A stretch of DNA of 39,376 bases, taken from positions 1 through 39,376 of the IMG/VR virus record IMGVR_UViG_3300028706_000001. One strand, 5' to 3'. The stretch is from a virus. Position numbers and translations under genes: made by a program. Below the pieces are notes generated by a model, which was not told where the DNA came from, ran no database searches, and saw only the letters and a list, made by a program, of their open reading frames with translations. Position 1 is the first letter of the stretch. Every line of letters begins with the position of its first letter. Below are positions 4,822 to 39,376 of the stretch, one piece after another.

Positions 4822-7179
4822 CTACCTGCTACGATCCTTAGCCAAGAACCCGCCGTCCCATCCGCTACCCATCTGCAAGGAAGCCTGACCAGCACCTACG
4901 CCACCACCAGACACGCCACCAGCACCAATGCGTCTTGACGATGCAGAATTCTCATTAGCAATCACGCTAACAAGGTTCCTGCCCGACGAAACAAGCTCAA
5001 CTCGCATTGACGTTCTGTCAGCCCTGTTAGATGCCGCATTCATTCCAGTCCAGTTACCCGTAAGTGTTGACGGTGCAAGCGCACTGCCCTGCATAGAGTT
5101 TATGCTGTCTACAGTCATTCCATTAGTGAACCACTGATCAAGCCCAGTTAGATTGCCTGTTGGCTTTCCGCCGCGACCACTACCACCACCCATAGAGGCA
5201 CTCTTCTCACTTGCCTTGGTGAGCTTCTTGGCTACAACAACAAGTGCCAGTCCTGCCGCCGCCGCCGCGAAGCCTCCGCCCGGCATTTTTATTGCTTGTT
5301 TGATCCATTCAATGAGCGCACCGAACTTCATTGCAAGAAGACCCTGCGTGATAAGGCTCTGCCCCCAGCTATCCAAGAAGCCACCAAAAGCCTCCACAAA
5401 ACTATCACCACCGATAGCCATATCCAGACTGGCATTGATCATATCAGCACCCATCTCAGAGTAGATCTCGCGCCTGCGCTGTCTTATGTCTTCTAATTTC
5501 TGATTGTGCTTCTCCTTTGCATTAAGCTCCTTCTGCCTCAGCTTAACCGCCTCTGCATTGTTCTTCGCTTGAGCGCGTAGCCTTTTCATCTGCTCCTCGT
5601 GGTCGAACAGATCTTTCTTAGCCTCTTTGCTTTCTTTACTAACCTCCTGTGGCTTGGGCTTAACCTTGACCCCAAACGTCTCGGTCAGAGAGCCGCTATC
5701 ATCCAAGACACCCTTCACTTTGAGGTCATTCAGTTGTGTCTGAAAGTTAATCTGGTCTTCCAGTGCGGCTGTCTGCGCCCTTAGATTAGCCAGAATCATC
5801 CCATCCGTTCCGAGAACCTTCTCTAGCTCAAAAGAAAGCTCTTCTACAGTGTACTTAGTAGCCTCCATCTTTTCAGCCCACTTTTCAGCAAGCGTCTTGA
5901 TCTCTTTCTTATCATCCTTTGCCTTCTTCAGCTTCTCTAGGTACTCATCAAGTGAGCCATCACCGACCATTTTAGCCCACTCTGAGCGAGTGATCTCCAG
6001 CTCAAGACCAGCATCAGTTACCGTCTGCTTGAACTCCATCCACTTCAAGTTCATCTCCTGCATAGCCGCCATAAACGAGACACCCCCGCCACCGAAGCCA
6101 CCAGCTAGAACGTCCTTGACCTTCTGCTCATACTTCGCCGCCGCGATGTTGGCAGGGTCCCACTGCGTTGCATACGAGACCTGAAGCTCGGCAAGACTGA
6201 GTTTGATCTCGTTATTGCGCTTGAGTATCCGAGCCTTTAGATTCTCTTCGGTAGAGATCCACGCTAAGTTCTCGCGTATCTGTTCATTATTATTTTTCTG
6301 TTGCTTTTCTAGATCCTCCAGAGAGATCTTCAGGTTCTTGACGTTTTCCCGCGCTTCCTTTAGCTCCGCCATTGTAAGCACATTGCCATCCTTATCCATC
6401 GCAATGTAGCCACCAAGCGTCTCCTTCAGCTCCTCTAACTTCCCTTTTGTATTGGAAATTTCCTGACCAAGCCTCTCCTGAGTCACAGCCATCTTGATTA
6501 CGGGATTAGCCGCAATGACCTCCATAAACGACTTAAACTCACCCTTGGCTTCCCTAGCCCTCTTAGCCGCCATCATCTGCTTGTTCATAAAGAACTCGAT
6601 GCCAGCGGTGACCAAGGAGAACGCAACAAGAAGACCTGCCGGTCCCGCTAGTGATGCTCCTAACTGCTTGAACGCCTTCTTCCACCCGCCCATCTGACCA
6701 GCCATATGAGTCATTGACTGGAAGAGCATCTGCACGTTGTTCGTAACGGCACGAACACCCTGTGCCGCCCCCATCCCAAACTGACCAGCATCCTGAAAGG
6801 TCTGACCAAGGGAAATGGCGGCAAAAGAACCAGAACCAGTTGCGTGGTTCATCTTAGAGAGCGCACCCTGAGTCTGGAGTGCCGCCTTCTCTGTCTTGCT
6901 AAGACCAGCTACTGCCGCCTCGTATGCTCGTGCCGAAGCTTGAGTAGCTCGTACCTGAGCCTGTAAAGCCCTCTTGATGGCATCAGACGCTTTAACAGCC
7001 TTTCCCTTGCTGTTGACCCACCGGTTCTGAGACTGGCTGAACCTGTACATTCCGCCAGTGGACTTCTGGATGAACCCATCTAGTTGAGCCATCTCGCCAC
7101 TAAGCTGGCTCATCGCAGTAATAGCCTTGCCAGCATTTGCGACAATCTCAATCCCAACTTGTGTCTTATTAATAGCCAC
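4822..7179 (-). CDS. Tape measure protein
   Basis: 785 aa. Long Lys/Glu/Ala-rich helical protein; charged coiled-coil stretches occupy roughly residues 210-600, a hydrophobic segment lies near residues 175-200 (LAGPAGLLVAFSLVTAG) and another Ala-rich one near 670-690. The C-terminus is Gly/Ser rich. These are tape-measure traits and the gene sits between the frameshifted chaperone pair and the tail-tip gene, the canonical siphovirus order. Using the family rule of about 0.15 nm per residue, a tail near 120 nm is expected (inference). Its start overlaps the stop of the upstream frame at 7179. Confidence 0.85.
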   Translation of the reverse strand: MAINKTQVGIEIVANAGKAITAMSQLSGEMAQLDGFIQKSTGGMYRFSQSQNRWVNSKGKAVKASDAIKRALQAQVRATQASARAYEAAVAGLSKTEKAALQTQGALSKMNHATGSGSFAAISLGQTFQDAGQFGMGAAQGVRAVTNNVQMLFQSMTHMAGQMGGWKKAFKQLGASLAGPAGLLVAFSLVTAGIEFFMNKQMMAAKRAREAKGEFKSFMEVIAANPVIKMAVTQERLGQEISNTKGKLEELKETLGGYIAMDKDGNVLTMAELKEARENVKNLKISLEDLEKQQKNNNEQIRENLAWISTEENLKARILKRNNEIKLSLAELQVSYATQWDPANIAAAKYEQKVKDVLAGGFGGGGVSFMAAMQEMNLKWMEFKQTVTDAGLELEITRSEWAKMVGDGSLDEYLEKLKKAKDDKKEIKTLAEKWAEKMEATKYTVEELSFELEKVLGTDGMILANLRAQTAALEDQINFQTQLNDLKVKGVLDDSGSLTETFGVKVKPKPQEVSKESKEAKKDLFDHEEQMKRLRAQAKNNAEAVKLRQKELNAKEKHNQKLEDIRQRRREIYSEMGADMINASLDMAIGGDSFVEAFGGFLDSWGQSLITQGLLAMKFGALIEWIKQAIKMPGGGFAAAAAGLALVVVAKKLTKASEKSASMGGGSGRGGKPTGNLTGLDQWFTNGMTVDSINSMQGSALAPSTLTGNWTGMNAASNRADRTSMRVELVSSGRNLVSVIANENSASSRRIGAGGVSGGGVGAGQASLQMGSGWDGGFLAKDRSR

Positions 7180-12503: not shown

Positions 12504-12532
12504 AATATAGTGAATAAAATATGAATTGTCAA
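12504..12532 (-). promoter_or_regulatory. Promoter for the scaffold-capsid operon
   Basis: Minus strand TTGACA (12532-12527), 17-bp spacer, TATATT (12509-12504). The spacer carries TTCAT and TTCAC 11 bp apart, the second abutting the -10 box. Upstream there is an A-rich element (AATAAAAAAAGTGAAAAT) shared with the promoter at 16.7 kb. Confidence 0.85.
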
Positions 12533-12564
12533 GAGGCAAACCACATTTATTTTCACTTTTTTTA

Positions 12565-12774
12565 TTATTCTCCTTTATAGTTTAGCCCATCTTGTACGTG
12601 GAGTCTCGTATTCTTACCTGAAGGGTAGTCGCTCTTATGCCAACCAGACCCTTTTAGCGTGAATGCTGTACTTGAGAAGACTCTTTTAACAGGTCTTCCG
12701 TCGATTTCGGTCAAGCCGTATGAGTCAGCCTCTACGATCTCTTCCGTATCAGTAAATTTGTATTCGTATGTCAT
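12565..12774 (-). CDS. FmdB-like small protein that has lost its zinc-binding cysteines
   Basis: 69 aa. Start chosen at the ATGA overlap with the upstream stop (12774). N-terminal MTYEYKF and the segment PVKRVFSSTAFTLKGSGW followed by HKSDY match the FmdB zinc-ribbon family pattern (TYEY..C..C ... C..C ... VKR.ISS..F.LKGSG.Y..DY). All four expected Cys are absent: the first pair is replaced by FTDTEE and the second by TEIDGR. Probably a structural derivative no longer binding zinc. Function unknown; it sits between portal-linked and scaffold genes but is upstream of the scaffold promoter. Confidence 0.6.
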   Translation of the reverse strand: MTYEYKFTDTEEIVEADSYGLTEIDGRPVKRVFSSTAFTLKGSGWHKSDYPSGKNTRLHVQDGLNYKGE

Positions 12775-13019: not shown

Positions 13020-14568
13020 CTAGCACCTCCTCATCTTTATTTGTTTCTGGCTCTTCTTCGATTTCTGAAGGGGCATTGAATGAATTTAGAGCCGCAGGTA
13101 CTTCCTGCTTCTCTTTCTCTTTTAGCCCCTCTACAGCACCCTCGCGGGCAAACTGTAGTGCGCTATCAACTTCCAAGTGGTTTGCAACTGCCGCGAACGC
13201 ATCAGCCTGAGTCTTGATAAGACCCTGAAGATCCACAGGCTTGAAGTCACTGCTTCTCTTGACCCACGTAGCGTACCAGCCTGACGCATCCTCTGGTGAC
13301 TCCCATTGTGCCGCCAAGAAGTAGATGTCATTCTCAATGTCATCAATAGCACTAGCGAAGATACGCAAGAACGCTGTGCGACCTGCCGCCTCGTCGAACA
13401 GCACCTCTGTAGCACTCTTCTCAATGTTTGACCCGTTCATGCGCTGGTGATTAGCGATGTAGAACTGGCGAGTCTCCTCCGAGTACACCTTGTAAGCCGT
13501 GTGACCATTGGCTGAGTCTGGGCTAATGTACTTCCAGTCACCCTGCATAGCATTCACACCCTGCATAATGGTGTGCAGGGATCTGGTCCACTGACCGTCT
13601 TCGACGTTACCCGCTAGGCGTGGATGGTTGATCACGCGGAAGTTCCAACGTGCATCAGATAGCAGGTTGTACAGCATATTGTGATCCTGAGCCATCTGGT
13701 AGCCAATGTAGCGATCCAGAGGGAGCCTAGTGCGACCAAAAGGTAGTCTGCGCTTAGTCTGAGTTGCCTCAGTGAAGAACGGGAAGCGGAACTGCATATC
13801 TGCAACCATAACCACCTCACGCTTGCCAGTAGAGGAGTCCTCTTTGTCAACCTCGTGGTATAGCTCCCATCCGTCAACAGTCCACAGGCGGTAATACTTG
13901 GTCCACTTTCCCTTTGTCTTCAGGGTGGGTTGTTCCCACTTCATCTCGCTTTGCAGAAGCTCCACAAGCACGCCATCCTCTTCACGCCAGTTTAGGATAG
14001 AATCTGGGTCTACCCAGTATGCACGAATGGGATCATCCTCGCTGACACGATCAACACGATACCAGAACCAGTTATCAACGATCATGCGCTGACCTGCTGA
14101 GATCAGGAAGGACTCCATATTGATCCCTGTGCCATCGACATCACGCCGGAAGTGGTACATTGGATCACCAGCCACATCAGGATCGCCAAGGGGACCATCG
14201 TACTCGCGATACGCTGATCTCTCAACTGCAAAAACCCCGCCGATCTGAGAATCAACAAGGGCGGACATATGTGAGGGGAATCGTGTAATAGAGGCTCTTT
14301 CACCGAAGGCAACAGCCATCTCTCCATGCGCTCTACGCTTGAGGTAAGTGCCGTTCTTGTTACCACCTCCCATACTGTCGTAGACGCGGATGCCACCATC
14401 CTCACCGTCGATAGCAGAGACTACAGCCCTCTCATGAGCCATATTCTTAGCCTCTTGAAGCACCACCTCTAGAGCGTTTCCGCTGTACTGGTCGCGTGAG
14501 AACTTGCGTTTTCGTCGCAGTTCTTCGTAGTCAGGATGTCTATAGTCTACCCAGAGTTCTTCGCTCAT
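13006..14568 (-). CDS. Portal protein
   Basis: 520 aa. Located directly after the large terminase gene (2-base gap) and before the scaffold. Long mixed alpha/beta protein with Trp-rich crown region (IRAYWVDPDSILNW), a helical stem region near residues 290-420 and an acidic C-terminus (EEEPETNKDEEVLDDAL). Size and order match portals that thread DNA and dock terminase. Confidence 0.75.
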   Translation of the reverse strand: MSEELWVDYRHPDYEELRRKRKFSRDQYSGNALEVVLQEAKNMAHERAVVSAIDGEDGGIRVYDSMGGGNKNGTYLKRRAHGEMAVAFGERASITRFPSHMSALVDSQIGGVFAVERSAYREYDGPLGDPDVAGDPMYHFRRDVDGTGINMESFLISAGQRMIVDNWFWYRVDRVSEDDPIRAYWVDPDSILNWREEDGVLVELLQSEMKWEQPTLKTKGKWTKYYRLWTVDGWELYHEVDKEDSSTGKREVVMVADMQFRFPFFTEATQTKRRLPFGRTRLPLDRYIGYQMAQDHNMLYNLLSDARWNFRVINHPRLAGNVEDGQWTRSLHTIMQGVNAMQGDWKYISPDSANGHTAYKVYSEETRQFYIANHQRMNGSNIEKSATEVLFDEAAGRTAFLRIFASAIDDIENDIYFLAAQWESPEDASGWYATWVKRSSDFKPVDLQGLIKTQADAFAAVANHLEVDSALQFAREGAVEGLKEKEKQEVPAALNSFNAPSEIEEEPETNKDEEVLDDAL

Positions 14569-14570
14569 CT

Positions 14571-15986
14571 TTATATTGGGAATTGACCCCCTCCGATTGT
14601 TCTTTTAGGGGTGGCTTCATAAATTGCAAGTTCCAACGCATTACGCCTGTCGGGTGAGCGACCTAATAACCTACGCTCATCCTTCTTACTAGCGACACGA
14701 TTTCTTCCCTTCGCGTCTAAAGTATAGGTTGCAGACACAACCTCCTGTGTTAGTCTCTCATCTTTAGGCAGTGTGCCTCCGGCTTCGAGCCAGTCTCGTA
14801 GGTCGAAGCATAGCTGGGTACGCAAGTCTGCGTATACATCTGGATTGGATGATGCATGGGCTACGTTTACTGGTCGAACAACGACACCCAGATCCTTAGC
14901 CTCCTGCATGATGTTCAGAAAGTCCGTAGGGGACGCTCCCAAGCCAATAACGTCGATCTTCACGTAGATCTTGTCATCGGTGGGTCGCTTTAGTCGGCGA
15001 ATAACCTCTAGTACCTTTGCCGCGATCTGCTGACCATTCCAGTTAAAGCCTACAACAGGCTCTAGTGCCTTTACGCCACGCACAGCCCAGATAACAGTCT
15101 CATCCTCGCCGTACCTAGCAGGGTCAACGCCTATACGTAATGCACCCTCTGTAGGGGCATTCTCCCAGCGCATCTGAGCATCTGTGGCAAGGCTCAAGCC
15201 AATGACCGCATCATCACCCTGACTAGGGAAGTTGCCCTCCACACGCACCTGAAACATCGGAGATTTCTCTCCCCACTCCTCTTTCTTCTCCTGTACCCAC
15301 TTGGGTCCAGCTAGTCCCTTAATCTCTCGCTCACCCGTTACATTCGGGCTGTGCTGGCTGGAAATGTGTATGTTATGCCAGAATCTGCTCTTGCTGTGGA
15401 ACGAATCAAAGAAGGTTCCGATCATTCTGGTAGGGTTGGAGAACAGTACCATCTTAGCACCAGCCGCCATATTACCCTCCATAGCTTCAAATACGGCTTC
15501 ATCGACACCAGAGGCTTCATCAATGATGTAGAGTAGGTTCTCACCAGAGATACCAGCGGCACGTTCCGGCTGGTCGGTAGAGAAACCGAAGATCTCATTG
15601 CCATTAGGGAAGACAAGACCACTGCTGGGATCACGGTACATCTGCCCGCCCAAGGGTACGTTCAGGTTAGCCTTACGGTACATAGACGTTATTTCGCGCC
15701 ACAGGATCTTTACCACCTGATTGAAAGACGCTGATGTGATCGGTACACGGGCATCTCTCTTAGTGGTAGCCCACCACAGAGCCAATATAGCGGCGGAATG
15801 GCTTTTACTGACTTTATGACCAGAACGTATAGATATACGATCATGCTTCTGCACAGCCTCTAGGATCTCGCATTGCTTTGACCACGGAGTAACGCCTATG
15901 ACGTTTTCTGCATAGAAGATTGGATCAGCAAGCTGTTCGGCTATTGCTAGGACCTCATCATCTGATATTTCTAAAAGAGAAGAAAT
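14571..15986 (-). CDS. terL: Terminase large subunit
   Basis: Packaging ATPase/nuclease. Walker A region SGHKVSKS, Walker B LLYIIDEASG, coupling motif FSNPTRMIGT, then a RNase H-type nuclease domain beginning IGVDPARYGEDE. An ATG/GTG/TTG start is present only at GTG 15854, but terminase-like residues continue upstream in the same frame (DPIFYAENVIG, TPWSKQCEILEA) to a stop at about 16005. I therefore place the start at the ATT at 15986 (471 aa), which aligns with an ATG in the related origin sequence at 26.58 kb. Non-canonical initiation is inference; GTG 15854 would remove part of the ATPase domain. Confidence 0.8.
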   Translation of the reverse strand: MSSLLEISDDEVLAIAEQLADPIFYAENVIGVTPWSKQCEILEAVQKHDRISIRSGHKVSKSHSAAILALWWATTKRDARVPITSASFNQVVKILWREITSMYRKANLNVPLGGQMYRDPSSGLVFPNGNEIFGFSTDQPERAAGISGENLLYIIDEASGVDEAVFEAMEGNMAAGAKMVLFSNPTRMIGTFFDSFHSKSRFWHNIHISSQHSPNVTGEREIKGLAGPKWVQEKKEEWGEKSPMFQVRVEGNFPSQGDDAVIGLSLATDAQMRWENAPTEGALRIGVDPARYGEDETVIWAVRGVKALEPVVGFNWNGQQIAAKVLEVIRRLKRPTDDKIYVKIDVIGLGASPTDFLNIMQEAKDLGVVVRPVNVAHASSNPDVYADLRTQLCFDLRDWLEAGGTLPKDERLTQEVVSATYTLDAKGRNRVASKKDERRLLGRSPDRRNALELAIYEATPKRTIGGGQFPI

Positions 15987-16090
15987 AGATATTATTAACT
16001 TTGTTTATAAATTTGTTTATTATCTAGACACGGTTGTCGTGGGGGGCTAGACATGACTGTCGGTACTCCCTAGACACGGTTGTCTACCCC
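15979..16090 (-). other. Second origin-like element between the terminase genes: three iterons plus AT-rich tract
   Basis: Palindromes GACA-N4-TGTC are centred at 16032.5, 16055.5 and 16078.5, exactly 23 bp apart, each flanked by CTA and G/C runs. On the minus strand they are followed by an AT-rich tract (16024-15982) beginning TGTCTAGATAATAA. The same arrangement occurs on the plus strand inside the initiator gene at 26478-26582. The first iteron overlaps the stop codon of the terminase small subunit. It could be a second origin, or a packaging site bound by the same protein. Confidence 0.7.
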
Positions 16091-16659
16091 CCTTCGCCAG
16101 AACTAACCTTCAAAGCCCTACTCATAAGTGCCGCTAATCCGCCTACTTCCTCTTCCGTCTTGGTGGTGTATGCGCCCTGCGCTCTGAGAATCCTATCCTG
16201 TGCCTGATCCACATCACGAAACTCAATAATCTGATTACCATTGCGGTCTGTACTGATCTTCTTAATCTGATGACCTAAGCCCATCTCCTTCAGCTTCTTG
16301 ACGTTGATACGAGCGTGACCTTCCTCGAAGACCTCCTGCTCACAATGAGGGCAGACTAATGGATCCACCTCTAGAGCTTCACTAACATCGAAGCGACCTG
16401 CGGCGGTTTGCCTAGCTAAAGCCTCTTCTTTAGACATAACCATCTTGTTCATCCGCTCGCGGATAACGTGGTCTACACTTTCGTTGTATCGGATCTTATG
16501 AGCCGCCACATAAATAGCATTCTGGCTCGGTCCGCAGTAGTATCCTGCCTGTTTGTAGGCATCAGTATGAGTCAGACCATTCTCAACTATACCATCAACG
16601 AATGCTCGTTGCTTTGGTTTTAGTTCAGCATAAGTCCTTAATCCACGCTTTTTGGGCAT
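16084..16659 (-). CDS. terS: Terminase small subunit
   Basis: 191 aa from MPKKRGLRTYAEL. N-terminal helix-turn-helix of the Terminase_2 type (LKPKQRAFVDGIVENGLTHT followed by DAYKQAGY), a small CPHC-type cysteine pair near residue 115, and a helical C-terminus. Recognises DNA for packaging and feeds it to TerL. The upstream ATG-like start at 16692 would lie before the predicted transcription start (~16684), so 16659 is chosen; AAAGTGG precedes it. Confidence 0.8.
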   Translation of the reverse strand: MPKKRGLRTYAELKPKQRAFVDGIVENGLTHTDAYKQAGYYCGPSQNAIYVAAHKIRYNESVDHVIRERMNKMVMSKEEALARQTAAGRFDVSEALEVDPLVCPHCEQEVFEEGHARINVKKLKEMGLGHQIKKISTDRNGNQIIEFRDVDQAQDRILRAQGAYTTKTEEEVGGLAALMSRALKVSSGEGG

Positions 16660-16690: not shown

Positions 16691-16719
16691 AATATAGTGA
16701 ATTAAAACTATCTTGTCAA
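16691..16719 (-). promoter_or_regulatory. Late promoter for the terminase-portal operon
   Basis: Minus strand TTGACA (16719-16714), 17-bp spacer, TATATT (16696-16691), preceded by ACTTACCCC and an A-rich block. TTCAC abuts the -10 box exactly as at 12.5 kb. The predicted start of transcription is ~25 bases before the terminase ATG. Confidence 0.85.
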
Positions 16720-16834
16720 GGGGTAAGTCAAAATAAATGTCACTTTTTTTATTTTTCTATCAACAAGCAGGAACTATACAACCCGCAGTGCTTATATTCC
16801 ACTGTTCTCATAATCAAAACAACAGGATTTACAA

Positions 16835-17173
16835 ATGGCTATTAACTCAGTAACAGTAAGCGGAAGACTAGGATCAGATGTTGAACTTCGTACCACAGGC
16901 GGTGGCGAATCAGTAGCAAGCCTTAGAATTGCCGTATCAGCAGGTAAGGACTCTACAGTCTGGCTTGAAACTACTGTTTGGAGCAAGCTTGCAGAGGTCT
17001 GCGCCGCTCACCTAAAGAAAGGATCGTTCGTAGTTGCCTCTGGGCGATTAAAAGATGACTCCTACACTAATAAGGATGGAGTCAACATCATCCGTACCGG
17101 AATGACTGCCTATGCGGTTGAATTTGGTCCAAACAGGATGGCAAGCACAGAACAAGATGATCTCCCATTTTAA
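16835..17173 (+). CDS. ssb: Single-stranded DNA-binding protein
   Basis: 112 aa OB-fold SSB. N-terminus MAINSVTVSGRLGSDVEL, strand motifs VASLRIAVSAG and WLETTVWSKLAEVCA, then GSFVVASGRLKDDSY. The C-terminal tail ends DDLPF, the acidic tip used by SSBs to recruit replication and repair partners. Short linker compared with cellular SSBs. First gene of the rightward early block, divergent from terS. Confidence 0.95.
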   Translation: MAINSVTVSGRLGSDVELRTTGGGESVASLRIAVSAGKDSTVWLETTVWSKLAEVCAAHLKKGSFVVASGRLKDDSYTNKDGVNIIRTGMTAYAVEFGPNRMASTEQDDLPF

Positions 17174-19934: not shown

Positions 19935-19976
19935 TCAAATAAATGAAAAAAAGATGAATTATTTTGCCCTACCCCC

Positions 19977-20005
19977 TTGACAAGTTCACAGAAATTTCGT
20001 ATACT
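19977..20005 (+). promoter_or_regulatory. Promoter of the 49-aa gene, probably leaderless
   Basis: TTGACA (19977-19982), 17-bp spacer, TATACT (20000-20005). The ATG of the gene is at 20011, six bases after the -10 box, so the message should start at or within the first codon. The upstream region (AAAAAAAGATGAATTATTTT, CCCTACCCC) closely matches the late promoter at 16.7 kb. Confidence 0.85.
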
Positions 20006-22128: not shown

Positions 22129-22285
22129 CGGTTCGGCTTTTTTAGTTGCTGTCTGACCAGAACATAGTGATAAAAGGGACACGGTCAACCGATTCACACA
22201 ACTTTCATAAACCACCCTTTTTTTTACTCCCACTCCTGTGCCTTGCCATTTTAAGGCTTATCCAACTAAGAAACCCAACTTTTTG

Positions 22286-22532
22286 TGTGAAGATTGCGTG
22301 AAGATATTGTGTGAAGATACCGTGAATTTGTGTGAATATTTGATGAATCCCTTGACATTGTCGATTATGAAGATACGGTGAATTAATGTGAAGATTGTGT
22401 GAAGGCCTTGACATTGTCATTTATGAAGATCCGGCGAAAGTGGTAGGGGGCGGGGAAAAAAAGATTTGTGAATTTACGGTGAAACACTTGACATTGTCAT
22501 TTATGAAGGTCGTGTGAACATTTGGTGAAGGT
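22286..22532. repeat. DnaA-box-like array 2, modular with TTGACATTGTC cores
   Basis: RTGAA pentamers start at 22287, 22298, 22311, 22322, 22332, 22343, then 22367, 22378, 22388, 22399, then 22423, 22434 (GCGAA), then 22468, 22479, then 22503, 22514, 22525. Steps are 10-11 bp (one 13). TTGACATTGTC starts at 22352, 22408 and 22488, always nine bases after the start of the last pentamer of a block, and the next block begins 15 bases later. The reverse complement of TGTGAATAT is ATATTCACA, one mismatch from the DnaA box TTATTCACA. Confidence 0.8.
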
Positions 22533-22985: not shown

Positions 22986-23072
22986 TGTGAAGTACGTGTG
23001 AAGAGACCGTGAACGTTGTGTGAATCAGTATTATGAACCTCCCGTGAATTTATGTGAATTTAGTGTGAATCG
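22986..23072. repeat. DnaA-box-like array 3
   Basis: Eight pentamers at 22987, 22998, 23009, 23020, 23033, 23044, 23054 and 23065 (steps 11, 11, 11, 13, 11, 10, 11). TTGACATTG starts at 23074, nine bases after the last one, the same geometry as array 2. The element occupies the gap between the genes that end at 23147 and begin at 22924. Confidence 0.8.
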
Positions 23073-23146
23073 CTTGACATTGCGGGATCCAGTCCCGACC
23101 CGTGTGCGCCCCCGCATGGGCGGGGGGAAAAAAAGATTTGTGAGAC

Positions 23147-25296: not shown

Positions 25297-25493
25297 ACGC
25301 AGAATCATCAGCAAAATTAGACCAGATACGAGAACTCTTAAATGAGATCACCCCACTAGCTACGTGGGAGAACGGTGCGGTGATCAGCATCGACAGTCTG
25401 GAAACACTAGAGCTAGCCCAGTCAATCCTGAACGATGAACCAGAGGGTGACCTTTTAGATTTATTGGACGGAGATGAAACATTCACGACCTAA
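25293..25493 (+). CDS. Small acidic protein, unknown function
   Basis: 66 aa, starts MNAESSAKLDQIRELLN with AGGAGG upstream. Two helices and an acidic tail (EPEGDLLDLLDGDE). Directly followed by a 17-bp palindrome (25496-25512) and the Rad52-like gene. Confidence 0.6.
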   Translation: MNAESSAKLDQIRELLNEITPLATWENGAVISIDSLETLELAQSILNDEPEGDLLDLLDGDETFTT

Positions 25494-25495
25494 CA

Positions 25496-25512
25496 ACGTA
25501 GAGGCTCTACGT
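25496..25512. promoter_or_regulatory. 17-bp palindrome before the annealing protein gene
   Basis: ACGTAGAG-G-CTCTACGT is a perfect inverted repeat around one central G, placed three bases after the previous stop and 36 bases before the ATG of the Rad52-like gene. A loop of one base cannot form a hairpin easily, so a protein-binding site is more likely. Confidence 0.4.
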
Positions 25513-25548
25513 AGACTTTTTAACAATTTCCAACTAGAGGAAGAAACA

Positions 25549-25938
25549 ATGCTTGAAAGAAAACCAACAAAAACCATTGCACAGATCCAAGCGGATCTAG
25601 CAAAGCCCTACCCCTCGCGGGAAAAAAGCAAAAGAATGGGTGGCAACACCATCAACTTCATTCCTTGGTATGAATGCGTCAGTATCGCCAACGCCGTCAC
25701 AGACGGGCAATGGGAGTACCGAATCGTCAAGAGCGGACACTCTGAGGTGTCAAAGAAGTTTGAAATGGTCGTTGAAGTGACTATACACGCATCTGATGGT
25801 AGCTTCAGCCGACAGGGTACTGGGTCTGAGGATTCATCCACGGACAACTACGGAGACTACCAGTCGATCGCAGAATCCATGGCCCTGCGTAGGGCCTTTA
25901 CCAAGTTTCAGCTTGGTGTCTATATGTACCGTAAATAG
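25549..25938 (+). CDS. Rad52-like single-strand annealing protein
   Basis: 129 aa from MLERKPTKT (GAGGAAG upstream); an earlier ATG at 25474 overlaps the previous gene and is less likely. Motifs FIPWYECVSIANAVTDGQWE, then VVEVTIHASDGSFSRQGTG and the signature SIAESMALRRAFTKFQLG with final VYMY match the Rad52/Sak group (xAESxALKRAxxxFGLGxYLY). It anneals complementary single strands and partners the RecE-like exonuclease a little downstream. Confidence 0.8.
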   Translation: MLERKPTKTIAQIQADLAKPYPSREKSKRMGGNTINFIPWYECVSIANAVTDGQWEYRIVKSGHSEVSKKFEMVVEVTIHASDGSFSRQGTGSEDSSTDNYGDYQSIAESMALRRAFTKFQLGVYMYRK

Positions 25939-26193: not shown

Positions 26194-26910
26194 ATGAGAA
26201 TATCAACCTATTACACAACCATTCCGAGCTACATTCGTCAGACTAAAGACCTGAAGCCACAGGCGAAGCTCATCTTCGGAGACATTGCCAACCTTGCGCA
26301 GAAAGAAGGCTTCTGCTACGCTAGTAATGCGTATATTGCAGGTCTAGCAAATCTAGACATTAGACAGGTCTCTCGGTACGTATCTGAACTCGTTAATGCG
26401 GGGTACATTGAGCGGGAAATCAAGGATGACGGAACGACCCGTTGGCTACGCATTCTACCCCCACCAGTTGTGACTACCCCCGACAATGAAGACGTGGGAC
26501 CCACGACAACCATGACTAGGGACCCCCGACAGTCATGTCTAGATAATAACAAAACTAAAAACAAAGAGAATAATAAAGATGTTTCTTTTCTTGACTTGGT
26601 CACTGACTACTTTGTTCATCGTGGCGTATCCCCGATTGATGCAGAAGATATGGCACACGGATTCCTAGCGTGGCACGAAGAGAACGACACCACCTATACA
26701 GGGGTAACGCCAACGAAGTTTAAAGCTCGTGCTAACACTTGGTATCAGAATGCTAAGAAGTTTAACAAGATTCAGGTTGAAGCCAAGGTGCTGACCAAGG
26801 AAGAGTTTGCAGACTTTATGCGGTTGACCAAACAGCAGAACAAAATGATTGACGCTGACGAGTGGGAACTAAGGAACGACCATTGGCATTACACACCAAA
26901 AGCTAAATAA
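26194..26910 (+). CDS. Replication initiator (lambda O-like organisation)
   Basis: 238 aa. N-terminal winged helix-turn-helix of the HTH_36 type (residues 15-90; LKPQAKLIFGDIANLAQKEG, ASNAYIAGLANLDIRQVSRY). A flexible linker (95-130, rich in Pro/Thr/Asn/Lys) is encoded by the iterons and AT-rich tract of the origin. The C-terminal part (130-238) is helical and may load the DnaB-type helicase encoded downstream. Binding of its own gene, as for lambda O, is inferred from this design. Confidence 0.8.
   Translation: MRISTYYTTIPSYIRQTKDLKPQAKLIFGDIANLAQKEGFCYASNAYIAGLANLDIRQVSRYVSELVNAGYIEREIKDDGTTRWLRILPPPVVTTPDNEDVGPTTTMTRDPRQSCLDNNKTKNKENNKDVSFLDLVTDYFVHRGVSPIDAEDMAHGFLAWHEENDTTYTGVTPTKFKARANTWYQNAKKFNKIQVEAKVLTKEEFADFMRLTKQQNKMIDADEWELRNDHWHYTPKAK
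26478..26582 (+). other. Origin of replication inside the initiator gene: three iterons plus AT-rich tract
   Basis: Sites centred at 26487.5 (GACA-ATGA-AGAC), 26510.5 (GACA-ACCA-TGAC) and 26533.5 (GACA-GTCA-TGTC) are exactly 23 bp apart; a weaker fourth site lies near 26468. They are followed by 26540-26582, an A/T-rich stretch with very few G/C. Iterons plus adjacent unwinding element inside the initiator gene is the lambda ori layout. The element recurs at 15979-16090 in opposite orientation. Confidence 0.75.
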
Positions 26911-26927: not shown

Positions 26928-27809
26928 ATGTATACAGACATCACAGAACACATCGGTTGCACTCAGGCGGAATACTTCGCAATGGACGGTATCAGCAACT
27001 CAGACGTTAACCTCTTCCAACGCTCACCGTACTTGTACAAGGCTAAACTGGAGGGGATGTACTCTAACCCAGTATCAGATCCTATGCGAATGGGTTCAGC
27101 CTTTGACTGCTTGCTACTGGAGCCACACTTGTGGGCTGACCAGTATGTGGTTACTCCGCTCGGTATGGATACGCCAACAACATCCAAGCAGGTCGGCTTG
27201 GTAAAGGCTATGCGCTCTGGTTTGGATATGCAGGAGTGCTTCACACTAGCGGGCTACGCTCGCCCTGACCCAAAGACCTTCCATAAGCTGAAGCCGTATG
27301 TAGACTTTCTTGCTGAGGTTGGCTCTAGAACGACGATCTCCGCAGATGAGTACTCTACGTTGGAAAATATGTTAGACTCCGTTAGGGACAATCCTGTGGC
27401 TTCTCAGAGCCTGTCAGAGACTACCAAGCAGATCGTTTACACGGCAGTCCACGAAGAAACCGGATTAACCGTTAAAGGAATGCTTGATATGGTAGGCACT
27501 AAAGAAGCATTCGTGTGCGACCTCAAGACAACGGGTGAGGAAGTCAGTAGATTCCCACGTAAGATATGGAATTACAACTACGACAGGCAGATAGCCCATT
27601 ACGCATCTCTTGCAGGTGTCGAGTGCTGTCGGTTTATCGCTGTGGAACGTGGTCACCTAAACGAGTGTGACGTATTCGAGTTGCACATAGACCGCGTGGA
27701 GTCAGGAAGGGAAAAAATGAATCAGGCTTTACTTGACATCCACGCATCTAGTCAGGATGGCTTTAAGCACCGTCCACATTTCTACACAACTAAATGGAAA
27801 CTAATATGA
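26928..27809 (+). CDS. RecE-like 5'-3' exonuclease (PDDEXK, DUF3799-like)
   Basis: 293 aa. Conserved N-terminal block with MRMGSAFDCLLLEP (residues 54-67), then the PDDEXK core KGMLDMVG (D187) and VCDLKTTG (D198, K200), and the QIAHYASLAG helix with Gln/Tyr. Processively degrades one strand of duplex DNA ends, feeding the Rad52-like protein. Paired exonuclease and annealing protein form a complete phage recombination module. Overlaps the next gene by four bases. Confidence 0.85.
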   Translation: MYTDITEHIGCTQAEYFAMDGISNSDVNLFQRSPYLYKAKLEGMYSNPVSDPMRMGSAFDCLLLEPHLWADQYVVTPLGMDTPTTSKQVGLVKAMRSGLDMQECFTLAGYARPDPKTFHKLKPYVDFLAEVGSRTTISADEYSTLENMLDSVRDNPVASQSLSETTKQIVYTAVHEETGLTVKGMLDMVGTKEAFVCDLKTTGEEVSRFPRKIWNYNYDRQIAHYASLAGVECCRFIAVERGHLNECDVFELHIDRVESGREKMNQALLDIHASSQDGFKHRPHFYTTKWKLI

Positions 27810-28162: not shown

Positions 28163-28454
28163 AAAAGCAGACCTTGTATCAGCGATACTTGACCACCTAA
28201 TTGATGCAGTACCGGAAGTGCAGAATACAGCAAAAGAAGCCTGTGAGTTTTGGGAAGATTACCTAGACCGCACAGACTATGACCTCAACACGAAGCAGAA
28301 TACTGGATGGACTCCAAGTGAGCAAGCAACCTACTGGACTGGCGTTGCTGAGGGTCTTAGCCTACTAGCGAGTTACAACTCTCGCAAGATAGCATTACTA
28401 CTGAATAAGAAACAACTAGAGGCAATCAATGAGATCATTCAACAGGTGGGATAG
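28152..28454 (+). CDS. Small helical protein, unknown function
   Basis: 100 aa. Three or more helices (DLVSAILDHLIDAVPEVQNT; TPSEQATYWTGVAEGLSLL). Embedded in the replication block with overlaps on both sides (11 and 26 bases), so a replication accessory role is plausible. Confidence 0.65.
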   Translation: MSAKKADLVSAILDHLIDAVPEVQNTAKEACEFWEDYLDRTDYDLNTKQNTGWTPSEQATYWTGVAEGLSLLASYNSRKIALLLNKKQLEAINEIIQQVG

Positions 28455-28842
28455 GGCAAGCCGATGGGCAGGAAAGAAGGTCACCCCTAAGGGGAAAAAA
28501 GGCTTTGCAGTAAACTGGAGCGATACGGAAGAGGTGTCAAATTTTATACTTGCGTTTCAGGAATTTCACCGCCTGTACTGCTCTGAGATTGGAATCGATA
28601 TACAAGACCTGATTGGCCCACTGCGGGTGCAGGAAATTGTTGACGCTAGACACGTAGCAATGGTAGCAATCCGCAGACAGGGTGCAACTTTACAGGAGAC
28701 AGCCCGTATATTCGGAAGAGTTAATCACACAACAGTCCTCCACGCCGAACAGCGTGTGAGGGAGCAAATCGAACTGTATGGGCAGGGTAGTCACCTGTCT
28801 GACCTTTTAAACACAGCACTAGAAGTCTATGTACTCCAATAA
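28429..28842 (+). CDS. Stand-alone DnaA domain IV-like DNA-binding protein
   Basis: 137 aa. Residues 60-112 follow DnaA domain IV closely: the basic loop region VQEIVDARHVAMVAIRR (R74, H75) and the signature FGRVNHTTVLHAEQRV (97-110; H100, T101, T102 match the DnaA residues that contact the DnaA box). The AAA+ ATPase and domain I are absent; the N-terminal 40 residues are basic. It should bind DnaA-box-like DNA without ATP-driven filament formation. Lies next to the DnaB gene. Confidence 0.85.
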   Translation: MRSFNRWDRASRWAGKKVTPKGKKGFAVNWSDTEEVSNFILAFQEFHRLYCSEIGIDIQDLIGPLRVQEIVDARHVAMVAIRRQGATLQETARIFGRVNHTTVLHAEQRVREQIELYGQGSHLSDLLNTALEVYVLQ

Positions 28843-30136
28843 TGAACGCGCACTACTAGGTGCGATCCTTAATGACCCTGATGTCTTCATTGATGTTATC
28901 GGTATCGTGACCCCTGATTCCTTCAGGGTAGCGGACAATAAACTGGTCTTCAAGACAATGGTGGAGCTATTTGATGCCTCCATCCCTATCGACTACGTAA
29001 CTGTATCGGACAGAGCGTCTAAGGCTCCTGACTCTAAGGGTATCGTAACCTACTGCGCTGACCTAGTGGGTAGTGAGTTTGGCACGAACGCTGTACACTA
29101 TGCCAGTCTCATTAACAGGGATGACAAGTGGCACAAGCTCAACACAGCAGGTCGTGAGATCATCACGATAGCTGACGAGCAGACCGACAGCGTAGAGTCA
29201 GCCATTGACGAAGCTGAGAGCCTCATCTTCAACATTGCTACGGAGGGGAAAAAAGAAACAGGCGGATACATCTCCTCGCTCCTGAAGCCCGCCTTAGATG
29301 AATTGGAAATGGCTCGTGCATCCGATGGTGGCATCATTGGCATCTCATCAGGATTCTATCAGGTGGACAGCATCACGGCAGGGTTTAAGAATACAGACCT
29401 AACGATTGTCGCGGCTCGCCCAGCTATGGGTAAGTCAGCATTCGCAATGCAGGTAGCTCTGAACTCAGCCAAAGCAGGAAAAAAATCCGCATTCTTCTCA
29501 CTAGAGATGGGCGGAACGCAACTCGTTCAGCGTCTACTCACGCAGGTTGCTGACGTTGATCCACAGAGAGCAAGAAGGGGATTTACAGATGATGAAGACT
29601 GGAGCAGGCTGACACGGGCGGCAGGAATGTTAGACGCACTACCCCTGTACATTGACGATGATTTCTCAATGACACCTACTGAGCTTCGCGCCAAGTGTCG
29701 CAGACTCAAGATGAAGGGCGGACTAGACTTCGTGGTCGTGGATTACCTCCAGCTTATGACAGTCAACGGCGAGACATCCAGAGAGCGTGAGGTTGCTAAG
29801 ATCAGCCGTAGCCTCAAGGGACTAGCAAAGGAACTGGATATCCCAGTAGTGGCTCTAGCACAGCTTAACAGGGGCGTTGAGAGTCGCGGAGCTAACGCAC
29901 GACCCATGCTTTCAGATTTACGAGAGTCTGGTGCGATCGAACAGGATGCAGATAATGTCATGTTTATCCATAGACCCGAATACTACGGCGTTACGATGGA
30001 CCATGACACAGGCAGAAACCTCGCCAACATCGGTGAGGTCATTGTGGCGAAGCAGAGAAGCGGCCCAACAGGAACGGCAGAACTCTACTTCAAGGATGGT
30101 AAATTTTCTAATCTAGACAGAACGGTGCAGGTATGA
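28829..30136 (+). CDS. dnaB: Replicative DNA helicase, DnaB family
   Basis: 435 aa. N-terminal helical domain (NERALLGAILNDPDVF), RecA-like motor with Walker A ARPAMGKSA (residues 196-204), the SLEMGGTQLVQR motif, Walker B VVVDYLQLM and C-terminal FIHRPEYY and KQRSGPTG arginine-finger region. Unwinds DNA 5'-3' at the fork as a hexamer. With the initiator and SSB it can set up replication with host polymerase and primase. Overlaps both neighbours. Confidence 0.95.
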   Translation: MYSNNERALLGAILNDPDVFIDVIGIVTPDSFRVADNKLVFKTMVELFDASIPIDYVTVSDRASKAPDSKGIVTYCADLVGSEFGTNAVHYASLINRDDKWHKLNTAGREIITIADEQTDSVESAIDEAESLIFNIATEGKKETGGYISSLLKPALDELEMARASDGGIIGISSGFYQVDSITAGFKNTDLTIVAARPAMGKSAFAMQVALNSAKAGKKSAFFSLEMGGTQLVQRLLTQVADVDPQRARRGFTDDEDWSRLTRAAGMLDALPLYIDDDFSMTPTELRAKCRRLKMKGGLDFVVVDYLQLMTVNGETSREREVAKISRSLKGLAKELDIPVVALAQLNRGVESRGANARPMLSDLRESGAIEQDADNVMFIHRPEYYGVTMDHDTGRNLANIGEVIVAKQRSGPTGTAELYFKDGKFSNLDRTVQV

Positions 30137-38090: not shown

Positions 38091-39376
38091 TTATGCAACG
38101 ACCACCGTAGTCCAGCTACCCCAAGTGCCAAATGCGGTGATCTGCCCATCCGTAACTGTCACTGTTCGTTGCCTGTACTCGGTTTGTGTGCCACCGTCTA
38201 CTGTCTGGAACTCCGTGTCCTTAAATGTGTCTGTTGCCCCGTCATCTTCCCATAAGAAGTTGCCACCAGAGAGGGCGTAGGCATCACCAGCGGCTGATTC
38301 ATAGGCGAACGACCCTGACTTGGCTCCCGAAACGCTTCCCGCAGTCTGTGACGAGAATGAATTGATGACCATCTCGGAAATGGCAGTCTCAGATGTCACC
38401 CCAGTACCTCCCCTTGCCACCGCGAGTGTTCCAGAGGTGATGTCGGTGGCTGAGTGGTTATGAGTGCCGATATAGGCAGACGTAATGGCTGTGCCTTGCC
38501 ACGTTCCTGAGGTAATTGTTCCAGTAGATGTTATCCAAGTGCCAGAGGACACGTTGATTGCACCTGCACTATGCGACAGTCCTGTGCCAAACTCCAGCGT
38601 GGCTGGGGCTGTTGCAGGGCTTTCTGGCATATAGACAATCTTATCATCTCCAGCATTAAGGAGGTTAGAGAAGCCCGTTAGCATTGCACTATAAGCCTGA
38701 ACATCCACCCCTACCTCGACATTCAGAGATTGTTGCGTGACATTAGAGTTAAGTAGCGTAGATAGTGATGTTAGCCCAGTGCCTCCATTGGCAACAGGCA
38801 GTGTTCCTGTGACATCTGCCGTTAAGGATACGCTGGCATAGAGGTTACCGCCAGATATGGTTACATTAGACCCTAGCTCCACCACGGAAGCTCCAGAGGC
38901 AGGAGTCTGTGGCATATAAACCAGTTTGTCATCACCAGAGTTGACCATATTTGCAAAACTGGTCAGCATCGTCGATGATGCCTGATACCCAGCAGTGCTA
39001 TGGTCCCCCCAACCGTATGCCGTATTCCAAGTAGCGGATGACGATATGTAGGCATCGGCGATAGCTGAACCCCACCACGTACCCGAAGTGATCGTTCCCA
39101 CCGTCCCAATGTCAGCACTAACGCTGTTAAGGTGGGTGCTAACATAATCCCCAGACCCTGCGTCATAATAGAGTAGGTGCTTATCAGCCGGAGTACCCGA
39201 TACGTCAGTTAGGCTTAATACGCTCTCCGAGGTTATGCCTGTGATATACCCAGAGTCATTGGTAAACACCGAAATGTTATCACCAGATGAGGCATACCCA
39301 GAACTTGCGTGATTTCCCCATCCGTAGGCGGTGTTCCAACTTGACGAACTGGCAATATAGGCATCAGCAATAGCCG
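38091..39376 (-). CDS. Giant tail-tip/central fibre protein, 3' part
   Basis: Continuation of the gene that begins at 4793. In this part, fibre repeats (SSATWNTAYGWGDHSTAGY; GTLPVANGGTGLTSLSTLLN) lead to a C-terminal region ending VTVTDGQITAFGTWGSWTTV and VVA. The frame continues to the right edge without a stop, and 4793 plus 1207 bases (39297-38091) is 6000, exactly 2000 codons. Confidence 0.8.
   Translation of the reverse strand, partial: AIADAYIASSSSWNTAYGWGNHASSGYASSGDNISVFTNDSGYITGITSESVLSLTDVSGTPADKHLLYYDAGSGDYVSTHLNSVSADIGTVGTITSGTWWGSAIADAYISSSATWNTAYGWGDHSTAGYQASSTMLTSFANMVNSGDDKLVYMPQTPASGASVVELGSNVTISGGNLYASVSLTADVTGTLPVANGGTGLTSLSTLLNSNVTQQSLNVEVGVDVQAYSAMLTGFSNLLNAGDDKIVYMPESPATAPATLEFGTGLSHSAGAINVSSGTWITSTGTITSGTWQGTAITSAYIGTHNHSATDITSGTLAVARGGTGVTSETAISEMVINSFSSQTAGSVSGAKSGSFAYESAAGDAYALSGGNFLWEDDGATDTFKDTEFQTVDGGTQTEYRQRTVTVTDGQITAFGTWGSWTTVVVA
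39298..39376. repeat. 79-bp terminal overlap with bases 1-79
   Basis: Exact identity with the first 79 bases, which argues for a circular map. The same sequence also occurs at 535-613 and the match there extends further left to 488, so a break within a repeat is an alternative. Confidence 0.75.

Follow-up and report, generated by a model that had tools for sequence, protein, structure and literature searches.

A candidate second origin between terS and terL of a phage genome and its match to initiator type in related viruses

In origins of the lambda O type, of which lambda itself has one, dyad iterons lie inside the initiator gene and are followed by an AT-rich tract. Initiator-binding repeats can also be located away from an origin, as in the iteron titration or handcuffing arrays exemplified by P1 incA. 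In phage SPP1, oriL lies inside the initiator gene, whereas oriR, with similar direct repeats and an AT-rich tract, is found ~12-13 kb away, among the late genes for virion assembly, and the same initiator, gp38 (G38P), binds both origins (PMC6316719, PMC3485210). SPP1 also encodes an annealase, an exonuclease, an SSB and a DnaB, and gp38 bound to oriR has been proposed to stop forks and to start the switch to concatemers together with the exonuclease, annealase and SSB (PMC6316719, PMC3485210); this theta-to-concatemer switch is itself described in the literature as a proposal. SPP1 was the sole phage with two origins read by one initiator in the literature that we searched, and the same search (most subscription papers being outside it) did not turn up any description of an origin copy at the terS-terL junction.

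Here, we analyzed a stretch of 39,376 nucleotides from an uncultured phage (IMG/VR record IMGVR_UViG_3300028706_000001; hereafter, the window), for which a reading of the letters alone (the original prediction) had proposed such a copy. Compared with SPP1 as published, the window has the same combination of a site within the initiator gene and a copy in the late region, here ~10.4 kb apart. However, oriR is located further down the late region, in the segment with the gene 8-10 morons, whereas the window copy sits exactly at the terS-terL junction, is inverted relative to the initiator-gene site and is apparently exchanged together with the initiator type. As in lambda, dyad repeats spaced by ~23 bp are found in the linker of a winged helix-turn-helix (wHTH) initiator gene, followed by an AT-rich tract; unlike lambda, the window phage has two origin-like sites. 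Unlike P1 incA, the window copy includes the AT-rich tract and sits in the packaging operon.

The initiator-gene site and its copy

The 238-aa product of the putative initiator gene matched PHROG families of replication initiation proteins (1e-18) and O-like replication initiation proteins (1e-8), and repeats followed by an AT-rich tract, as in the SPP1 and lambda O systems, occupy positions 26482-26590 inside the gene (Table 1). The original prediction had placed here the same array of palindromes as at the terS-terL junction. The 23-bp step is indeed kept, but only the unit at 26528 is a perfect GACA-N4-TGTC palindrome, those at 26505 and 26482 (GACAATGAAGAC) having one and two mismatches, respectively. 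Pattern scans of IMG/VR for paired palindromes returned many loci with 3 to 5 units at 21-25 bp. In 27 of 66 unrelated IMG/VR loci with at least three GACA-N4-TGTC units at 20-26 bp, the array was located 3-127 bp behind an initiator wHTH detectable by tblastn as a relative of the initiator domain of the window or of the type B viruses described below, and the 60 bases behind the array had a median AT content of 80% (29 wHTH loci, including two of the ATCA type). In many unrelated phages, the same array follows immediately after the part of the initiator gene that encodes the DNA-binding domain; on this basis it can be assigned to the initiator-type origins, and the 26.5-kb site would be an unremarkable origin of the lambda-O kind, embedded in the initiator gene.

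Between terS and terL, the three exact GACA-N4-TGTC palindromes that had been predicted on the minus strand were recovered by pattern matching at 16027-16084, with a start-to-start distance of 23 bp; the whole window contains 6 exact matches versus 0.88 expected by chance. On the minus strand, the order from the terS stop (16084) to the terL start is TAGACAACCGTGTCTA-GGGAGTAC-CGACAGTCATGTCTAG-CCCCCCA-CGACAACCGTGTCTAG and then ATAATAAACAAATTTATAAACAAAG, and the AT fraction is 0.74 in the 35 nt that precede the terL frame. Named phages yielded no close DNA match to the element, and no prophage relatives were found in the bacterial genomes scanned.

As predicted, TGTCTAGATAATAA and an AT-rich tract are present at both sites, inverted relative to each other, and two inverted repeats, I1 (58 nt at 74%) and I2 (38 nt at 87%), pair one site with the other. 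When the element was aligned locally with the initiator-gene site (26.48-26.58 kb), the match extended over ~90 bases in inverted orientation with a score of 67, far above chance (at most 32 in 100 shuffles), and continued past the AT-rich tract into the first terL codons. According to the original prediction, the element also takes the place of the usual terL start. In four relatives (L002, L003, L004 and L005), terL starts with TTG, which indeed aligns with ATT in the window, and the origin-like sequence enters the first codons, but the terL frame is intact. No ATG, GTG or TTG is found near the start of the window TerL (15984-15986, minus strand), and the gene may use a non-canonical start codon or be translated by coupling.

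Two arrays are not a general habit of phages with such origins: in 19 of 20 unrelated near-complete phages carrying the array, no second copy rose above background. The exception, G049 (L332), is a viral contig with two GACA-N4-TGTC arrays of a different layout (5203-5260 and 13464-13521, 8.2 kb apart), both intergenic and behind terminator-like hairpins, one of them upstream of a ParB-like/terS/terL gene set.

The window also encodes the recombination set of exonuclease, annealase, SSB and DnaB helicase (Table 1); no homologue of a helicase loader or a Holliday-junction resolvase was recognized among its genes. Within the replication operon, just before the helicase gene, lies the gene of a small phage protein with DnaA domain IV (28429-28842, plus strand; Bac_DnaA_C, 1.5e-13), a diverged relative of which (33%) is encoded in contig L133. 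DnaA boxes (TTATNCACA) are absent from the window, and two are present in L003, at 3194 and 3205. Tandem TGTGAA-rich repeats at 22283-22530 and 23034-23089 (families D5 and D7), several followed by TTGACA, resemble promoters repeated together with operator sites; GTGAA repeats of a similar kind occur at 350-420 of L372. A promoter-like segment, AATATAGTGAAT...TTGTCAAG, found at 12504-12571, at 16691-16758 and, inverted, at 19941-19984 (D8, I3), precedes the late genes and terS and is possibly a shared regulatory site. An identical 79-base segment recurs at 1-79, 535-613 and 39298-39376, and this internal repeat may be the reason why the contig appears circular. The sign of GC skew switches near 16 kb, but the switch follows gene direction, and the third-position values were inconsistent; skew was therefore set aside as evidence for an origin at this position.

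Table 1. Coordinates of the two sites and of the genes considered with them in the window
Feature	Positions	Strand	Basis
terL (large terminase), ATT start at 15986-15984 by homology	14571-15986	-	phrog_2; alignment with relatives
AT-rich tract of the second copy, putative unwinding element, extending into the first terL codons	15980-16026	-	alignment to the initiator-gene AT tract
Palindrome 3 of the terS-terL array, GACAACCGTGTC, adjoining the AT tract	16027-16038	-	exact pattern match
Palindrome 2 of the terS-terL array, GACAGTCATGTC	16050-16061	-	exact pattern match
Palindrome 1 of the terS-terL array, overlapping the terS stop codon	16073-16084	-	exact pattern match and sequence
terS (small terminase), stop codon at palindrome 1	16084-16659	-	Terminase_2; phrog_51
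Single-strand binding protein	16835-17173	+	Pfam SSB 2.5e-18
Rad52-type annealase	25474-25938	+	Pfam Rad52_Rad22 2e-5
Replication initiator, N-terminal winged HTH and C-terminal domain common to type B initiators	26194-26910	+	Pfam HTH_36 6e-10
Three 23-bp-spaced palindromes inside the initiator gene, putative primary oriL-like origin	26482-26539	+	pattern matches, alignment
AT-rich tract beside the initiator-gene array, putative unwinding element, AT 0.83	26540-26590	+	sequence
Exonuclease VIII-like PD-(D/E)XK nuclease	26928-27809	+	DUF3799 2e-16; phrog_412 1e-37
DnaB-type replicative helicase	28829-30136	+	Pfam DnaB_C 5.5e-95

The same junction in related viruses

We read the terS-terL junction in viruses found as TerL relatives. 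The element of L013 is identical to that of the window and comes from a separate sample, on which ground an assembly artefact was rejected, and that of L001 is nearly identical, with one half-site lost (GGCA) and 2 differences in 87 compared bases. These elements are referred to as type A. In L002, L003 and L005 (TerL 78-84% identical), the late-region site likewise consists of repeats and an AT-rich tract, but the array is a different one, ATCA-N4-TGA at 24-25 bp steps (type B); its AT tract contains TTATACTAAAGAGTCC repeats in L002 and L003 and is diverged in L005. Alignments of type A with type B elements scored 12-16, within the range of shuffles, whereas type B elements scored 74-94 among themselves. 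It could be supposed that the noncoding copy as a rule has the more perfect palindromes; by inspection, this is so in the window and L002 but not in L003.

The element is absent from L004 and L007, in which terS ends six bases before the TTG start of terL, and is thus dispensable at least in the L004/L007 virus. Because L004/L007 are sisters of L003/L005 in the TerL tree, its loss is likelier than its never having been acquired. Among more distant relatives (within L008-L014), no array was found at the junction.

A search with the helicase gene recovered contigs L372 and L373, from the samples of L002 and L003, respectively, as well as the other initiator contigs of the clade. Type B initiator genes have the same gene order, with the adjoining exonuclease gene. 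Type A and type B initiators are 36-39% identical in the C-terminal domain, and no significant match was detected between their N-terminal DNA-binding domains. The initiator genes of L372 and L373 hold the type B array with the same AT tract. The L002 element scored 118 against the site in the L372 initiator gene, 89 and 80 against those in other type B genes, and 16 against type A. For the L003 element, the scores were 106 with L373, 107 with L133, 90 with L372 and 17 with the window, which clearly separates type A from type B but does not separate L373 from its near relative L133. The four central bases of the units tend to match as well, being CCAG in L002 and L372 and mostly AT-rich in L003 and L373.

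L003 and L373 have end sequence in common (137 identical 25-mers, with a repeat-flanked difference of ~0.4 kb in between) and are therefore very probably one genome. Repeated promoter modules before small early genes are found there (L003 1-560 and the start of L373), and the ~0.4-kb difference looks as if genes had been gained or lost between promoter repeats. L002 with L372 and L001 with L023 were paired only by sample and by the similar shapes of the TerL and helicase trees. L004/L007 were found in the same two samples as L133/L330, so that the element-free virus probably has a type B initiator origin.

Unrelated sequence at the site in related phages, which the original prediction had taken as a point against itself, does occur in the sense that L002, L003 and L005 carry a different array, but that array resembles the initiator-gene origin of their own virus. 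This tracking across relatives gives good support to the proposal that the terminase operon holds a second copy of the initiator's origin, and the element has apparently been exchanged within the clade as a unit with the DNA-binding domain of the initiator. Furthermore, the noncoding elements of L002 and L003 are 80% identical (83/104 aligned bases, AT tract included) where four-fold degenerate sites of TerL are 38% identical, and the element therefore appears to be under constraint. In the initiator gene, the type B AT tract is coding (YTKESLKSPKE); the terS-terL AT tracts differ from that version by single-base insertions and deletions, and hence their similarity does not stem from coding.

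Possible roles of the element

The resemblance of the element to the initiator-gene site of each phage suggests a working second origin. We put at roughly 0.6 the probability that it is a second, initiator-bound origin-like site acting as a late origin and/or a fork barrier like SPP1 oriR. The sequences themselves supply the duplication and its position, the agreement of element and initiator types, the retention of the element, and the SSB, annealase, exonuclease and DnaB genes. The wHTH initiator would bind the three palindromes in its own gene, beside the AT-rich tract where the strands would open, in the layout of lambda O and SPP1 oriL, and the same protein would bind the duplicate of palindromes and AT tract at the start of the late operon. 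So bound, the second site would fire late, block forks or do both, and would aid the turn from circle replication to recombination-dependent synthesis of concatemers, which the terminase, encoded by the genes flanking the element, would take as its substrate.

Alternatively, the junction might hold an initiator-binding operator, which would repress or time terL and the late genes until replication consumes or titrates the initiator. The element is indeed located within the late operon, between terS and terL and downstream of a promoter-like site (16719-16691), and tracking of the initiator type would be expected of an operator as much as of an origin. However, a pure operator needs no AT-rich tract, and this tract is conserved too, including its TATACTAAAGAGTC repeats, which belong to the coding sequence in the initiator gene; moreover, L004 manages without the element. 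Consequently, we regard an operator as unlikely. Quite unlikely, too, is a more direct coupling of replication to packaging, in which the bound initiator would stall forks and make a DNA end, or mark new DNA, so that concatemers would form and packaging would begin at one place, the site being swapped with each initiator swap.

Little credence is given to an initiator sink, an incA-like titration array whose extra sites would restrain the primary origin or bring about handcuffing between it and the element. The three additional, more perfect palindromes of the window and the tracking with the initiator are compatible with it, but it would leave unexplained why the AT-rich tract is copied and why both types keep one orientation relative to terL. 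It is because the AT tract has been copied too that a full origin is favoured over an operator or a sink. We find it equally hard to credit that the element is a neutral leftover of module exchange, a piece of the initiator gene pasted at the junction by illegitimate recombination. Although the copy extends into the start of terL, no canonical start codon is found for TerL and the element is missing from one lineage, the 80% identity is retained beyond synonymous saturation, two unrelated types occupy one junction, each matching its own initiator, and the window copy has a perfect array. As RNA, all elements gave folds slightly more stable than those of shuffled sequences (z -1.8 to -3.1), with differing structures as expected of palindromic repeats, and an RNA hairpin as the main function was set aside as the less likely reading.

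Finally, the idea, also part of the original prediction, that the element is a pac site or another mark at which TerS starts packaging is disfavoured and highly improbable: the element lies directly at the terS end, and pac sites are often in or near terS (that of SPP1 overlaps the start of gene 1; PMC6316719), but between viruses that have unrelated elements, or of which one has none (as in L004/L007), TerS remains 73-82% identical, so that the sequence goes with the initiator gene rather than with the TerS that would read it.

The apparent exchange of the late site in step with the initiator, in a second phage group, provides evolutionary support for a function of the second site. The natural variants, with type A, type B or no element, would allow tests of the role of this site, and its position among the packaging genes makes a link between replication and packaging directly testable.
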